Made by a program: the position numbers and the translations under genes. A model generated the notes under the pieces. The model saw only the letters and a list, made by a program, of their open reading frames with translations, did no database searches and was not told where the DNA came from. A DNA stretch of 64,000 bases from Desulfobulbaceae bacterium (GTDB taxonomy: Bacteria > Desulfobacterota > Desulfobulbia > Desulfobulbales > Desulfocapsaceae): positions 124,001-188,000 of the forward strand of contig WSXV01000004.1 in NCBI GenBank assembly GCA_009773475.1, read 5' to 3'. Below, piece after piece: positions 57,971-64,000 of the stretch. The first letter of the stretch is position 1, and every line of letters begins with the position of its first letter.

Positions 57971-59902
57971 ATGTCTTTTTTTCCTAAAAAATACCCGGTG
58001 CCAAGCAAAGAAGAATTGCTGGCCATGGCGGACTCTTCGCGGGACTGGGAGGTTTTTTGCGGCGGGAATTGCAACTGGAAATATGTCTCCCCGGCCTGTG
58101 AACGAATCACTGGTTACACTCCGGAAGAATTTCTGGAAAGTCCTGATCTTTTTGAAAACATTCTTCATCCCGACGATAAAGAGCGGGTCAAGACCCAATG
58201 CCAAACCCATTCCAACCATGAATTTATACCCTTCGAAGTTGAGTTCCGCCTCTTCACCAAGACTGGTGATACTCGTTTGATTTGGCGAAAATGCCAAGCT
58301 GCCCGTGACACCCAAGGGAATTTGCTTGGACGCCGGGTAAGCATTCAAGACATCACCGACCAGCATGCTACTGGAGCCGCCCAGCAACAAGTGAGAACCA
58401 TGTTCATGAATGGCCCGGTCATTGTTTTTCTCTGGCAAAACAGACGCAACTGGCCGGTGGAAAGCATCTCCGGAAACGCTTTTGATCTCCTTGGATATTC
58501 AAGTGAGGAGTTTCTCAGCGGCTCAGTACTCTACAGCTCGATCATCCATCCTGACGATATCGTCCGGGTAACCGCTGAAGTGGAGGCCAATTCTTTACCG
58601 GAAAGTACTAATTTCATTCACAAACCCTACCGCCTGATAGCCCGAGGCGGCAGGATTATCTGGGTTCTTGAATCCACCACTCTGGTTCGTGACAGCACCG
58701 GCCAGATCACCCATTATCATGGCTATCTGGTTGATATTAGTCATACGGTCCAGATGGAAGAAGAGGCTCTGGCCGTCAAGAATCGTCTCGAATTCATCAT
58801 TGACAGCACCAGCCTTGGTACCTGGGACTGGAATATTCAGACCGGTGAGCTAGTCTATAATAATCAATGTCTGGAGATGCTGGGCTATGGCCCTGGCGAG
58901 CTGAGTCCTAACGTCGCCTCCTGGCTGAAACTGATTGACCCTGAACAAAAGGTCAACGTCATCCGAGCGTTAACGGATCACCTGGAAGGACGGAGCCCGA
59001 GGTTTAGCCTTGAACACAGACTTCAACACAAGTCAGGGAGATGGATCTGGGTGCTCAACAGCGGCAAGGTATGGGAAGTTGATCACAATGGAGTTCCTGC
59101 GCGAGCCTGCGGCATTCATCTCGACATCACCCATCGGAAGGAACAGGAACTCCTTCTCCTGGAAACAATCCAGCGGAAAGAACAGGAAAAGCGCATTGAA
59201 TCACTGAAAACCATGGCCGTCGCCGTTGCCCATCGTTTCAACAACTCCATGCTGGTGGTTCTGGGAAATCTTGAAATGCTGTGCAGGAATTTTCCCGATG
59301 AATCAAAGTCCAAGGAGATGGCTCTCATGGCCTTGCAAGAGGGCAAAGAAGCCAGCAAGATAGGGCAATCCATGCTGACCTATCTTGGATATGGAATACC
59401 TCGAAAACAACCACAAGATCTTGCGGCGCTAGCCTGCGAATCTTTTTCAGCCATCATCAAGACCTTTCCATCCGCAATCATCAGTCAGTGTATCACCCCG
59501 CCGGCACCCATTCACTGCCGATTCGATACGATCCAGATTAGACAGGTTCTCAACAACGTCCTGACCAATGCCCTTGAATCGCTCACCCCGAAAACACGAC
59601 AGATTACTCTTACCTTTGGCACGGCCGTGCATTCCCCTGCCGATTTCCCCCTCCTCTTCCGGGAAGGGCTCCCGGATACCTGCAGGTATGGTTTCTGCCG
59701 GATTGCTGACAATGGCGTCGGGATCGCCACGAAAGATATTGAGCGGATTTTTGAACCATTTTTCACCACCCGGTTTATAGGCCGTGGATTAGGGCTGGCC
59801 CTTGCAGCAGGAATCATGCGTTCCCATCAAGGGGCCATTGTGGTAAAGAGCACCTTGAAGAGAGGCACAAAAATCACCATACTGCTGCCGATGGAAGAGT
59901 AA
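57971..59902 (+). CDS. Soluble histidine kinase with three PAS domains
   Basis: The 643-residue protein has no membrane helix. Three PAS/PAC units (about residues 20-135, 140-265 and 270-395; GYTPEEFLESPDLFENILHP, GYSSEEFLSGSVLYSSIIHP, GYGPGELSPNVASWLKLIDP) precede a kinase core with His421 in VAHRFNNSM, where relatives have HDFNN, and an ATPase domain with NNVLTNALES, DNGVGI and GRGLGLALA. There is no receiver domain, so it needs a partner regulator. A GAAGGAG site precedes the ATG. It is followed after 20 bp by a binding lipoprotein and then a hybrid kinase, in one apparent operon. Confidence 0.9.
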   Translation: MSFFPKKYPVPSKEELLAMADSSRDWEVFCGGNCNWKYVSPACERITGYTPEEFLESPDLFENILHPDDKERVKTQCQTHSNHEFIPFEVEFRLFTKTGDTRLIWRKCQAARDTQGNLLGRRVSIQDITDQHATGAAQQQVRTMFMNGPVIVFLWQNRRNWPVESISGNAFDLLGYSSEEFLSGSVLYSSIIHPDDIVRVTAEVEANSLPESTNFIHKPYRLIARGGRIIWVLESTTLVRDSTGQITHYHGYLVDISHTVQMEEEALAVKNRLEFIIDSTSLGTWDWNIQTGELVYNNQCLEMLGYGPGELSPNVASWLKLIDPEQKVNVIRALTDHLEGRSPRFSLEHRLQHKSGRWIWVLNSGKVWEVDHNGVPARACGIHLDITHRKEQELLLLETIQRKEQEKRIESLKTMAVAVAHRFNNSMLVVLGNLEMLCRNFPDESKSKEMALMALQEGKEASKIGQSMLTYLGYGIPRKQPQDLAALACESFSAIIKTFPSAIISQCITPPAPIHCRFDTIQIRQVLNNVLTNALESLTPKTRQITLTFGTAVHSPADFPLLFREGLPDTCRYGFCRIADNGVGIATKDIERIFEPFFTTRFIGRGLGLALAAGIMRSHQGAIVVKSTLKRGTKITILLPMEE

Positions 59903-59922
59903 TCCTGACCCTGGAGAACGCC

Positions 59923-60729
59923 ATGCCCTCAAACCCTGCAAGTATTTCTTGTACCCTCCACACCCTCCTGATCGGGATTTTGCTGCTTCTCAGCTCCTGT
60001 GACACAACTCCAGATCAACACACTACTCAAGGACAGAATGGGCCTAAAAGAGAGCTTCTGGTCTATTGCGGCATAACCATGGTTCAACCGACCATGGAAC
60101 TTGCGACGCTTGTTGAAAAAGAAAAAAACTGTACAATCAAAGTTAGTTACGGAGAATCAGAGTGGCTGAAAGCAACTGCCGTCGACTCTAAAACCGGCGA
60201 CATTCTTTTTCCCGGAGCACCTTCTTATCTACAATCCATGATAGAAGACGGGTCCATTAATAAGACTGTGACCGTGGGGGAGAACCGCATCGCCCTGATA
60301 GTACAGAAAGGCAACCCCAAACAGGTTCGACCGGATCTTCACGAACTCCTCAGAGAGGATCTACAGATTGTCATAGGAGCTGCGGATTCCGGCTCCATCG
60401 GCAGAGAAACATTCTACAGCCTAAAAAAACTCGATATCTATGAACAGGCCATCACTAAAGCCCTGTACCTGACGGCCGATTCCAAAGGACTGTCACAGGC
60501 ACTCCACTCCAAAGATGCCGACCTGGTCGTCAACTGGCGAGCCGTGGCCACGTTTAAAGACAATAAGCAGTTTATGGATGTACTCCCGCTCCCCGATGCA
60601 CAGACCGAAACTCACCCTCTGGTTATGGGCCTTTTGAGTTACAGCAAACATAAAGATCTAGCAGAATATTTCCTCCAACGCGCAGGCTCCGAATCAGGCC
60701 AGGAAATTTTCTCCAGATATGGGTTCTAA
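59923..60729 (+). CDS. ModA/PstS-like solute-binding lipoprotein in a kinase operon
   Basis: The 268-residue protein has a lipoprotein signal peptide with lipobox LLSSC (about Cys26) and a binding domain of the ModA/PstS/extracellular family 1 type: ELLVYCGITMVQPTMELATLVEK, VSYGESEWLKATAVDSKTGDILFPGAP, RIALIVQKGNP, IGAADSGSIGRETFYSL and DADLVVNWRAVATF. The ligand is likely an oxyanion or small anion, but that is inference. No permease is adjacent; instead it lies 20 bp after a kinase and 11 bp before another, suggesting that it is a periplasmic sensor component. Confidence 0.85.
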   Translation: MPSNPASISCTLHTLLIGILLLLSSCDTTPDQHTTQGQNGPKRELLVYCGITMVQPTMELATLVEKEKNCTIKVSYGESEWLKATAVDSKTGDILFPGAPSYLQSMIEDGSINKTVTVGENRIALIVQKGNPKQVRPDLHELLREDLQIVIGAADSGSIGRETFYSLKKLDIYEQAITKALYLTADSKGLSQALHSKDADLVVNWRAVATFKDNKQFMDVLPLPDAQTETHPLVMGLLSYSKHKDLAEYFLQRAGSESGQEIFSRYGF

Positions 60730-60740
60730 TTCACCAGCAT

Positions 60741-61454
60741 ATGACCTTTTCAACCCTTAAAGAGCCAATGTGGCGACAGATTATTCTGTTCATCTGTATT
60801 TTCTTTACCATTCTTGGATGCGTTATCATCTTTCAGAATAGGATGCAGAGCGAGCTCTCCTCTATTGTTTCCCTTCGAAGAAATGAATTAGAACGGATCG
60901 AGATGAGCTATCTCATCCACATCGACCTGCAAAAGGTTCAGTCCCTGTTCCAGAACATGTCGACATGCAGAACAGAATATGAACTGGATTATTTTGAAAA
61001 ACAGATCCAGACTACTATCGCTAAAATTCAGGAGCTCATCACCATTATTGGAAATGGTGGTACCGCCACCTATACCTACAAAGTCAATTTCGGCAATGAA
61101 GAGGAAATTCAACGAAGCTTTACGTACAGGAATGAACGTCAGAGCGAGCTCAGCCTTGACACCTTTGAGCTGAGCAGCAAGGTCAAAATTCTTCTCCAGA
61201 ACGAGTCAAGATTCAAGGAACTTATTAAAGATAAGTCGACTCTCACAGATCCCACGCTGCAACCCCAGATCGACCAGAAGGTCTTTTTTTTCTACAAGGG
61301 TATTGATCCTTATTTCCAGCGCATCTTTGAGAACTCCTATCGCATCTATTTTAATTCTCAAAAGGAGATGCAGCGCTTCCATACCCTTGTCGATCAAACC
61401 ACAAAAAAAATTCCCTTCGATTCCGGATTTTTCTCTCCCTGGCCGGCTTATTGA
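60741..61454 (+). CDS. Sensor domain of a membrane hybrid kinase, first half (frame-split gene)
   Basis: These 237 codons encode a membrane helix (IILFICIFFTILGCVIIFQ, residues 13-31) and a helical, charged periplasmic domain, then stop at 61452-61454. The domain resembles helical-bundle sensors such as that of TorS in style only. The true continuation is in another frame: from the A8 run at 61403-61410 onward, the -1 frame reads KNSLRFRIFLSLAGLLMATLTGK, a second membrane helix leading straight into the kinase. The last 15 codons of this frame (after TTKK) are therefore probably not the natural ending unless the short product is also made. Confidence 0.7.
   Translation: MTFSTLKEPMWRQIILFICIFFTILGCVIIFQNRMQSELSSIVSLRRNELERIEMSYLIHIDLQKVQSLFQNMSTCRTEYELDYFEKQIQTTIAKIQELITIIGNGGTATYTYKVNFGNEEEIQRSFTYRNERQSELSLDTFELSSKVKILLQNESRFKELIKDKSTLTDPTLQPQIDQKVFFFYKGIDPYFQRIFENSYRIYFNSQKEMQRFHTLVDQTTKKIPFDSGFFSPWPAY
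61403..61410 (+). promoter_or_regulatory. A8 frame-change site joining the sensor and kinase halves
   Basis: Eight A residues span ACA-AAA-AAA-ATT in the first frame. A -1 shift here (ribosomal on A-AAA-AAA, or one extra A in the transcript or in the real genome) joins residue 223 of the sensor part to a transmembrane helix and the kinase. The alternative is independent initiation at ATG 61454 overlapping the stop. Confidence 0.6.
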
Positions 61455-64000
61455 TGGCTACCCTGACCGGGAAAGTTCTTCTAAATATTAGAAAAATTCT
61501 TCGTGAGCGAAATGCCTTCCAGCAGGAATTAAAGCAGACCAATGAAGGGCTGGAACAAACAATACTCGAACGAACCTGGAAGCTGCACGAAGAGGTGGAA
61601 GAAAGAAAAAAAGCTGAGGAAAAAGAACATCAACATGCCCTATTTTTAAAAACCATCATCAATTCTCTGGCACATCCATTTTATGTAGTGGATGTAGAGA
61701 CCTATGAGATCAAGATGCTGAACGATGCCGCCCGTCAATTAAATCCTGAGCACAGCCGGTTTTGTTACACCCTGACCCATCACAAGGATGATCCATGCAA
61801 TGGCAAGGATCATCCCTGCCCTCTGGCTGAAGTCAAGCGAAGTGGGCAGTCGGTAACCATAGAACACATTCATTACAATCAGGCCGGTGAAAAGATCTAT
61901 GTCGAGGTGCATGGCTACCCCGTATTTGATGCGGACGGAAACGTCATCCAGATGATCGAATATAACATTGATATTACAGATAGAAAACTTGCTGAAATGG
62001 CACTGACGGAGTCTCATAAAAATCTGGAGGCAACCGTTAAAGAACGAACGGCAAACCTTGAGGAAGAAATTGAGAAACGTCAGAAGATTCAGGCCTATTT
62101 CCAGGAAAGTGAACATTATTATCGAACCCTCATTGAGAGCAGTAATGACTTAATTACAATCATTGACGGAAGCGGGACAATTACCTATGCCAGCCCTTCA
62201 ATCCGGCGAATGCTCGGTTATTCCCCAGAGTTTATTGAAGGTAAAAATCTCTACGACTATCTACACCACGATGATATTCGCTTTGGCAAGGATCAATTCA
62301 GCGCATTTCTGGCTTCACTCGTCCCTGAAAAAAGACTGGAGCATCGAATTCTAGCCAGTGATGGCCGGTACCTCGTCATGGATTCATCTTTCCACAACCT
62401 TTTCCATGACAAAGCCATCAACGGGCTCCTGCTGACTGCCCGTGATATAACAGCTAAACGAGAGGCCGACGCCTTGATGCGCAAGCTGCAACTGGTGATC
62501 GAGCAGAGTCCAAATAGTGTTGTGATCACTAATAAAGATGGGGCGATCGAATATGTCAACCCCCAGTTTGAACTGGTCACCGGCTACACCAAGGCCGAGG
62601 CACTGACTCAGAATCCGAGAATGCTCAACAGCGGGCTCACTTCCCCAGAGACCTTTCAGTCAATGTGGAATACGATCTCCCAGGGTAAGATCTGGCAGGG
62701 AGAATTTGCCAATCGCAATAAAATGGGGAAGATCTACTATGAAAACGTGGTAATCGCCCCCTTGAAAAATGAGCTCAATGAAGTTACCCACTACGTGGCA
62801 ATGAAGGAAAATATCACCGAGCTTAAACTTGCCCGTGAACAGGCAGAGGCCTCCAATAAGGCCAAATCCGAATTCCTATCCCGGATGAGCCACGAGCTGC
62901 GCACCCCGCTCAACGCCATCAACGGGTTTTCAAAGCTACTAATGGGCAGTAAAACCAGTCAATTAACTCCACGCCAACAAGAACAAGTCCTCCAGATCAA
63001 TACAGCGGGCCATTATCTGCTTGCGCTCATCAATGAAATCCTTGATCTGTCCCGCATTGAATCCGGGAAGCTGACCCTTTCCATCAAAAGTATTCAACCA
63101 GCCGAAGAAATTAATAACTGCCTTGCCCTGGTGGAATCACTGGCCGTTAATAACAAGGTCAGCATTCATATTGATGACACCATTCGGGAGTTACCGGCCA
63201 TCAAGGCCGACCCGACCCGCTTCCAGCAGGTTATGCTGAATCTGCTAAGCAATGCCATCAAGTACAATCGACCTGACGGTACCGTCACCATTACCGGAGC
63301 AGTGGAAGAAAAAATGGCCTGCATCCGGGTTATAGATACCGGTATTGGTATTGCTCCGGACAAACAGAAAGAACTCTTTGTCCCCTTCACCCGACTTGGC
63401 CAAGACGATACCACGGTGGAGGGAACCGGCATCGGTATGACCATCACTAAGCAGTTGATTGAGCTGATGCAAGGAGTCATCGATTTTACCAGTATTCCCG
63501 GGTCTGGAAGCACCTTCAGGGTGGCCTTGCCACTGGCTGACCATGAAGATCAGGTAATAATGAATGCGGACTTAAAGATCGAGCAGATCGACTTGGCCTC
63601 CAAGGCCGCCACAATTCTTTATATTGAAGATAATAGCGACGATATCTCTCGAATGCGTAAACTTATGGTCCATTGGCCGCATGCTTCGCTGGTCATTCGG
63701 AAGACACCGGAAAAAGGAGTCCAGACCGTTGAAATGCTCAACCCCAATTTTATTATTCTGAGTCTCGATCTTTTTGGCGCTGATGCAGCCAATACTATAT
63801 TCAACCTGCAACAAGATCCACAGACACGAAACATTCCCATTGTCGCTTTAGGCGGGGAAGCTTTACCAGACACCGCTAACGGCCAACAGGACGCGTTCCA
63901 CAAACTTGGATGTTATGAATATTTCACTAAACCCATGGACGTGTCGAAATTGCACACCATCCTCACCACAGTCCTCAAGGAAAAAAGAAATGACAGAGAA
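61454..64000 (+). CDS. Hybrid sensor histidine kinase, kinase half (runs off the window)
   Basis: The frame is open for 849 codons to the window end. It starts with the end of a membrane helix and a coiled coil (RERNAFQQELKQTNEGLEQT), then three PAS-type units (about residues 65-185 with an added cysteine pair in CNGKDHPC, 210-330 and 330-455), a dimerisation domain with phospho-acceptor His480 in MSHELRTPLNAINGFSK, an ATPase domain (NLLSNAIKYN, DTGIGIA, GTGIGMTITKQL) and a C-terminal receiver beginning ILYIEDNSDD. The receiver is cut by the window. The ATG at 61454 overlaps the upstream stop (TGATG), so it may be coupled, but the helix upstream in this frame argues that the halves are one protein. 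Confidence 0.88.
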   Translation, partial: MATLTGKVLLNIRKILRERNAFQQELKQTNEGLEQTILERTWKLHEEVEERKKAEEKEHQHALFLKTIINSLAHPFYVVDVETYEIKMLNDAARQLNPEHSRFCYTLTHHKDDPCNGKDHPCPLAEVKRSGQSVTIEHIHYNQAGEKIYVEVHGYPVFDADGNVIQMIEYNIDITDRKLAEMALTESHKNLEATVKERTANLEEEIEKRQKIQAYFQESEHYYRTLIESSNDLITIIDGSGTITYASPSIRRMLGYSPEFIEGKNLYDYLHHDDIRFGKDQFSAFLASLVPEKRLEHRILASDGRYLVMDSSFHNLFHDKAINGLLLTARDITAKREADALMRKLQLVIEQSPNSVVITNKDGAIEYVNPQFELVTGYTKAEALTQNPRMLNSGLTSPETFQSMWNTISQGKIWQGEFANRNKMGKIYYENVVIAPLKNELNEVTHYVAMKENITELKLAREQAEASNKAKSEFLSRMSHELRTPLNAINGFSKLLMGSKTSQLTPRQQEQVLQINTAGHYLLALINEILDLSRIESGKLTLSIKSIQPAEEINNCLALVESLAVNNKVSIHIDDTIRELPAIKADPTRFQQVMLNLLSNAIKYNRPDGTVTITGAVEEKMACIRVIDTGIGIAPDKQKELFVPFTRLGQDDTTVEGTGIGMTITKQLIELMQGVIDFTSIPGSGSTFRVALPLADHEDQVIMNADLKIEQIDLASKAATILYIEDNSDDISRMRKLMVHWPHASLVIRKTPEKGVQTVEMLNPNFIILSLDLFGADAANTIFNLQQDPQTRNIPIVALGGEALPDTANGQQDAFHKLGCYEYFTKPMDVSKLHTILTTVLKEKRNDRE

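Follow-up and report, generated by a model that had tools for sequence, protein, structure and literature searches.

Receptors that depend on a solute-binding protein (SBP) to act across the membrane form a mechanistic class that includes TorT-TorS, XylFII-LytS, BctC-BctE and AioX-AioS. TorT is an SBP of a type other than the ModA fold, XylFII has a sugar-binding SBP fold, and AioX is a PhnD-like SBP whose system controls a transcription factor; QseG, the partner of the kinase QseE, is an outer-membrane lipoprotein and not a solute-binding protein. A survey from 2022 put the number of sensor kinases characterised as SBP-activated at only about ten and gave 13 of 22 SBP families as having some known connection with signalling (PMC9602780). 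The arsenite system AioX-AioS-AioR is a three-component signalling system in which the SBP gene lies directly upstream of the sensor kinase gene and no transporter is involved (PMC7533571), and in Pseudomonas aeruginosa three SBPs encoded near the kinases AgtS and AruS gave no interaction with them (PMC11113362). No report of SBP_bac_11 or ModA-like proteins together with histidine kinases was found in the literature searched, in which subscription papers were thinly covered. Here we analyse a locus whose mechanism would belong to the known class and whose SBP/sensor family is apparently undescribed.

The window, that is, the whole stretch of 64,000 nucleotides analysed (G000:C10:124001-188000), comes from a draft genome (91% complete, 26 contigs) and closes with a run of genes that continues into the extended contig, with the following features.

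57971..59902, forward strand: K1, soluble triple-PAS histidine kinase, 643 aa, H-box AHRFNN (open reading frame, three PAS_3 matches, HATPase_c)
59923..60729, forward strand: SBP, ModA-fold binding lipoprotein, 268 aa (PF13531, 146.6 bits)
59998..60000, forward strand: codon of the lipobox Cys26 (LSSC), with Asp at +2 (read from the translation)
60741..61454, forward strand: first half of the receptor, TM1 and periplasmic sensor domain, 237 aa (open reading frame; AlphaFold2 model, pLDDT 93.4)
61059..61127, forward strand: codons of the beta-hairpin insert, residues 107-129, between helices 2 and 3 (DSSP of the model)
61403..61410, forward strand: A8 tract with a one-base loss that splits the receptor (comparison with the sister genome G009)
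61411..64000, forward strand: second half of the receptor in a shifted frame, with TM2, PAS domains, HisKA, HATPase_c and a degenerate REC (domain matches, intact G009 orthologue)
63987..65069 of the extended contig, forward strand: REC-HD-GYP phosphodiesterase gene, 360 aa, overlapping the end of the hybrid kinase gene

The first-pass annotation, made from the window alone, had described a soluble triple-PAS kinase, which the three PAS_3 stretches and HATPase_c bear out, and had given gaps of 20 bp (K1/SBP) and 11 bp (SBP/receptor) and no permease; the gaps are as given, and no permease (ModB) gene lies beside the SBP gene in the window. The kinase half of the receptor runs to a stop at position 64030 of the extended contig, and the response regulator that the annotation proposed to look for beyond 64000 is the REC-HD-GYP protein, encoded by the fourth gene of the operon. 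All four genes occur in identical order in the same-genus sister genome G009 at about 80-91% identity, K1 being 84% identical and syntenic and the REC-HD-GYP protein having a 91% identical orthologue in the same place.

The membrane hybrid kinase with a helical periplasmic domain, also predicted earlier, stands as far as the helical sensor is concerned, according to the structure model, but is not encoded by a single open frame. TM1 and the sensor lie in the reading frame 60741-61454 and TM2 and the cytoplasmic domains in another, the A tract at 61403-61410 having one base fewer than in G009 (AAAAAAAA versus AAAGAAAAA), where the orthologue is one intact hybrid kinase of 1088 aa. To gauge how frequent such frameshifts are, we compared 30 proteins of G009 that match somewhere in the region of the window, among which the receptor is the only one that matches in two frames. 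Programmed frameshifting at the A8 tract was considered and judged unlikely because the tract is not conserved, G009 having AAAGAAAAA and one continuous frame. Since the receptor is frameshifted in the assembly, its function in this strain is uncertain. The chances that the lesion is real, and the module a fresh pseudogene at the level of the strain that yields a truncated, membrane-anchored sensor and a kinase fragment lacking sensor and TM segments, appear to us just short of even: the frame is broken in the assembly while the other 29 proteins compared show no split frames, but the site is a homopolymer tract, a classic spot for sequencing error, and beyond it an open frame of 859 codons retains every kinase motif and is about 83% identical to G009. 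Receptor genes of two other MAGs (L054:1348-3399 and L092:1904-4738) carry a single in-frame stop in the sensor domain.

A profile of the SBP alone retrieved 80 loci from GTDB genomes. In 76 of them the gene immediately downstream of the SBP codes for a membrane receptor that carries the sensor domain of the window's receptor. For 70 of these the downstream gene has a pair of TM segments with about 215 residues between them; for the other six the sensor domain was recognised right after the SBP in a gene that is interrupted, truncated where the contig stops or not picked up by the TM rule. The four true exceptions (L034, L035, L090 and L097) have the SBP gene by itself, not beside a receptor, and each of their genomes contains exactly one family SBP and one strong sensor match elsewhere. 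Lipoprotein homologues lying beside ABC permeases had been named beforehand as the pattern that would speak against a sensing role, and no such pattern emerged for the pair, a permease-like neighbour within about 4.5 kb being present in at most 1 of the 80 SBP loci. The other pattern named beforehand, a lack of co-occurrence, did not emerge for the pair either. By record label the hosts include Desulfobacterota-type deltaproteobacteria, alpha-, beta- and gammaproteobacteria, Sulfurospirillum, Planctomycetes, Bacteroidales, Ignavibacteria, Acidobacteria, Anaerolineae, Cloacimonadota, Omnitrophota, Eisenbacteria, Clostridia and Pontiellaceae (MAG labels as given), so that the pair spans about a dozen bacterial phyla.

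We also surveyed 296 genomes of the window's own phylum, with thresholds of >270 bits for the SBP and >140 bits for the sensor. The SBP was present in five genomes and the sensor in six, with both in four, where they are adjacent (Fisher p 2.4e-7 for co-occurrence). In G179, the fifth genome with the SBP, the contig breaks off within the SBP gene or shortly past it, and the contig of the sensor-only genome G098 starts just before the receptor; the SBP was not detected in this survey in the genome of G051, which carries a divergent receptor. The next SBP-like matches scored ≤158 bits, and, by hand count, about 18 of the 25 lower-scoring SBP-like loci whose surroundings were examined adjoin a 4-6-TM protein of ModB size. 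Family SBPs and ordinary ModA proteins are therefore separable by both score and neighbourhood. The association of SBP and receptor is far beyond chance, and the conserved core is this pair and not the triplet of genes suggested at first: SBP and receptor occur together in 76 of the 80 loci, but the PAS kinase was seen in this position in the sister species alone, and the triplet was rejected as a conserved unit.

The searches also brought up several related arrangements. A second type of receptor has the same sensor domain in kinases of about 680 aa (L024:7773-9818, L026:6923-8959, L157, L158, L160 and L161). In place of the SBP, a conserved protein of about 204 aa with one TM segment (..GYIKKET..) comes before it; the SBP is then encoded in trans or, in G051, was not detected. 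Other ModA-like SBPs directly precede two-TM receptors in L027:8750-11793, L028:222-3741 and L122:1420-3635; the SBPs of L027 and L028 show 22-24% identity, the sensors of all three receptors have no match to the sensor family of the window, and these loci are probably further, independent SBP-receptor pairs. Finally, in L025:5605-9799 (G031) a related hybrid kinase is paired with HD-GYP and has no SBP; its sensor is a distant relative (48.8 bits), and its receiver domain has seemingly lost the phospho-accepting Asp.

The receptor has its extracytoplasmic sensor between two TM segments, the second of which lies in the shifted frame in the window. The 237 residues of the window's sensor were modelled with a pLDDT of 93.4 and a pTM of 0.85 as a bundle of four helices, with a beta-hairpin (107-117, 120-129) inserted after the second. 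Five residues, G106, G107, N116, R194 and E197, are invariant in an alignment of 69 rows, and of these G107 and N116 lie within the hairpin insert and G106 immediately precedes it. None of the 69 sensor members scanned gave a convincing Pfam match above the gathering score; the most widely shared sub-threshold match was PilJ (4 of 69 sensors, best E 0.014), and the best match of the window's sensor was TssO, with 18.9 bits against a cut-off of 29.2. NCBIfam gave no match for the sensor domain. A profile of the 69 sensors matched no bacterial sensor chain in the PDB by sequence up to E 1, and no sequence homology to the solved TorS or LytS chains was found with it. By structure, the neighbours include both sensors solved with a protein partner, namely LytS with XylFII (Z 13.9 over 122 residues), TorS with TorT (Z 12.8 over 126 residues, rmsd 2.4) and QseE with the lipoprotein QseG (Z 12.1 over 151 residues), and the direct ligand binders Vc1313, MCP2201, NarQ and McpN, but Z values of about 13 are near the unspecific range for helical bundles and therefore support the fold class, not a function. 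The top Foldseek matches, to flagellin, were discarded as long-helix artefacts (TM about 0.2, rmsd about 29).

The SBP was earlier called a ModA/PstS-like lipoprotein; the first half of that label is upheld by the PF13531 (SBP_bac_11) match, 146.6 bits against a gathering score of 25, and the relation to PstS was dropped, as no PstS-type match was found. The score against the modA equivalog TIGR01256, 35.3 bits, is below the cut-off of 62.5, the closest PDB match is a ModA-type protein of Clostridium difficile (4kd5, E 1.1e-21), and PF13531 was the only family matched up to E 0.01, with no match to the PhnD-like family of AioX. The lipobox Cys and the Asp at +2 are both kept in G009; Asp at this position of a lipoprotein is an inner-membrane retention signal in E. 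coli. In nine loci (L080, L081, L083, L086, L087, L092, L093, L101 and L102), which belong to the mostly Thiodiazotropha/gammaproteobacterial branch with GGDEF receptors, the SBP seemingly sits on an uncleaved N-terminal membrane anchor and not on a lipid.

Residues T52, S79, I159, S187 and W205 of the SBP align with the molybdate-contact positions S12, S39, A125, V152 and Y170 of E. coli ModA. Across 67 aligned SBP sequences T52, S158 and G160 are invariant and S79, S187, N204 and W205 nearly so. As judged from these alignments, the predicted pocket is ModA-like but altered; the ModA-type positions make the anion binding proposed earlier plausible, and the ligand is probably an oxyanion or a small acid. 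A cysteine, C49 in strand 1 (YCGIT), lies close to the pocket residue T52 and is kept in 63 of the 67 SBPs, so that thiol-reactive ligands are worth considering.

Pairwise distances among 50 SBP/kinase loci, in all of which shared ancestry contributes to the values, gave a Spearman correlation of 0.75 (Pearson 0.86) between SBP and sensor, compared with 0.58 between SBP and kinase core and 0.48 between sensor and kinase core, although the last two are parts of the same polypeptide. The sensor therefore tracks the SBP better than it does the kinase of its own polypeptide. The partial correlation of SBP and sensor given the kinase was 0.66, and the maximum of 500 shuffles was 0.26. This internal comparison of correlations argues for a specific partnership of SBP and sensor. 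The SBP and receptor genes share a reading frame in 24 loci, and reading through the stop between them gives one chain; a model of such a read-through SBP and sensor from Marinomonas (L038, 24 rows), made without a negative control, had a disordered linker and a pTM of 0.70, against the roughly 0.45-0.51 that we estimate for two well-folded, independently placed domains, and hints at a defined interface. Only SBP chains were among the matches listed in a Foldseek search of this fused model, which therefore says nothing on the interface.

Receptor outputs vary. They are histidine or hybrid kinases in 53 loci by motif and in a few more by reading, and GGDEF proteins in nine; an HD-GYP gene lies close to the pair in 11 of the 70 two-TM loci. 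The regulator encoded at the window has a receiver and intact HDxGK (MHDIGK) and HHEKWDGSGYP motifs, with matches to the receiver and NosR-type PDE models, and is a predicted HD-GYP response regulator; the output here is probably c-di-GMP hydrolysis. Because the hybrid kinase's own receiver is degenerate, with a Pfam score below the cut-off and Gly in place of the usual Thr/Ser, our preferred route is direct phosphotransfer to the receiver of the HD-GYP protein. A Cys/His cluster, CYTLTHHKDDPCNGKDHPCPL, in the first PAS region of the hybrid kinase (about 61740-61850, forward strand, frame of the kinase half) is kept in G009 and could bind a metal or cofactor. K1 does not accompany the pair in almost any other locus and was seen with it only in the sister species; it is a genus-level addition to the module. 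The convergence of two kinases on one output, as the first-pass annotation had it, found no support beyond the operon shared by two species. The HD-GYP regulator might be phosphorylated by K1 as well as by the hybrid kinase, which would combine a cytoplasmic signal with a periplasmic one, and the single operon-like run of four genes in two species and the intact H-box motifs of both kinases would fit, but a PAS kinase is absent from nearly all other loci, including a relative (L030) that keeps SBP, hybrid kinase and HD-GYP, and we consider this convergence unlikely.

Our main reading, to which we give a probability of roughly 0.75, is an SBP-dependent, transporter-less receptor in two parts. 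A ModA-fold SBP, held at the membrane by a lipid anchor here and having an uncleaved anchor or a plain signal peptide in some relatives, would capture a ligand that is small and probably an oxyanion; once loaded and closed, the SBP would then dock on the periplasmic helical bundle of the two-TM receptor and change the activity of the kinase, or of the GGDEF domain in relatives. The kinase would most likely drive the adjacent REC-HD-GYP phosphodiesterase and thereby change, and probably lower, c-di-GMP. This reading agrees with the earlier proposal that an SBP without a transporter serves the helical-bundle sensor of a kinase, as in TorT-TorS. It is well supported by the co-occurrence of the two genes, by the persistence of both where they are unlinked, by their coupled divergence and by the fold of the sensor model. 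We let retention in trans and coupled divergence outweigh gene order, since adjacency of an SBP and a kinase gene is not proof of partnership (PMC11113362), and count against the reading that the divergent family receptor of G051 comes without a detected SBP in its genome and that the receptor frame is broken in the present assembly.

The sensor bundle might instead bind the ligand itself, like NarQ and the four-helix-bundle chemoreceptors, with the SBP merely scavenging, buffering or modulating. NarQ, McpN, MCP2201 and Vc1313 are indeed among the fold neighbours, and the invariant polar residues N116, R194 and E197 could make a pocket; a separate binder, however, would need neither an SBP that is almost always present, even unlinked, nor a sensor that diverges in step with it, and we regard self-binding as improbable. 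Far less probable still is that the SBP serves a transporter whose permease is encoded elsewhere, its place beside the kinase being incidental: the fold is that of ModA-type transporter subunits, but the modA cut-off is missed, at most 1 of 80 homologues has the permease-like neighbour that ordinary ModA relatives usually have, and the same type of receptor adjoins across about a dozen phyla. Taking the two-part receptor as the preferred reading, we tentatively suggest, with less than even confidence, that SBP and hairpin sensor form one obligate receptor for one shared extracellular anion across about a dozen phyla, with outputs swapped between histidine kinase, hybrid kinase with HD-GYP, and GGDEF; it could be an external c-di-GMP input common in sulphur- and nitrogen-cycling bacteria. 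The near-invariant pocket-equivalent residues T52, S79, S158, S187, N204 and W205 across phyla fit a shared ligand. The family is large and homologous, with SBP and sensor both recognisable from sequence and with varied outputs, and yields a sensor-domain profile that is new, natural partner pairs by the dozen on which binding and co-evolution could be tested, and a way toward a signal that feeds c-di-GMP. Culturable hosts of the pair include Dechloromonas agitata (L072) and Marinomonas (L038).

Compared with known systems, the SBP shares with ModA of ModABC its fold (TM-score to targets about 0.8-0.88) and the aligned pocket positions, but has Ser and Trp in the C-lobe pocket where ModA has Val and Tyr, has no ModB/ModC neighbours and scores below the modA equivalog cut-off. 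AioX-AioS-AioR is similar in having the SBP gene directly before the sensor kinase gene and no transporter, and differs from the window, where the SBP matches only PF13531 and the output is HD-GYP. QseG-QseE (PDB 9m08) likewise joins a lipoprotein to a helical-bundle kinase sensor, but one with no sequence relation found to the window's sensor. XylFII-LytS, which senses xylose (PDB 5xsj), also has an SBP-type protein serving a kinase with a four-helix sensor, but the LytS sensor is shorter, lacks the hairpin insert and has no sequence match. TorT-TorS, which senses TMAO (PDB 3o1h), resembles the locus in combining a periplasmic binding protein with the helical-bundle sensor of a hybrid kinase; TorS has no sequence match to the profile of the window's sensor, and the pair of the window is instead composed of a ModA-fold lipoprotein and a hairpin-bearing sensor.
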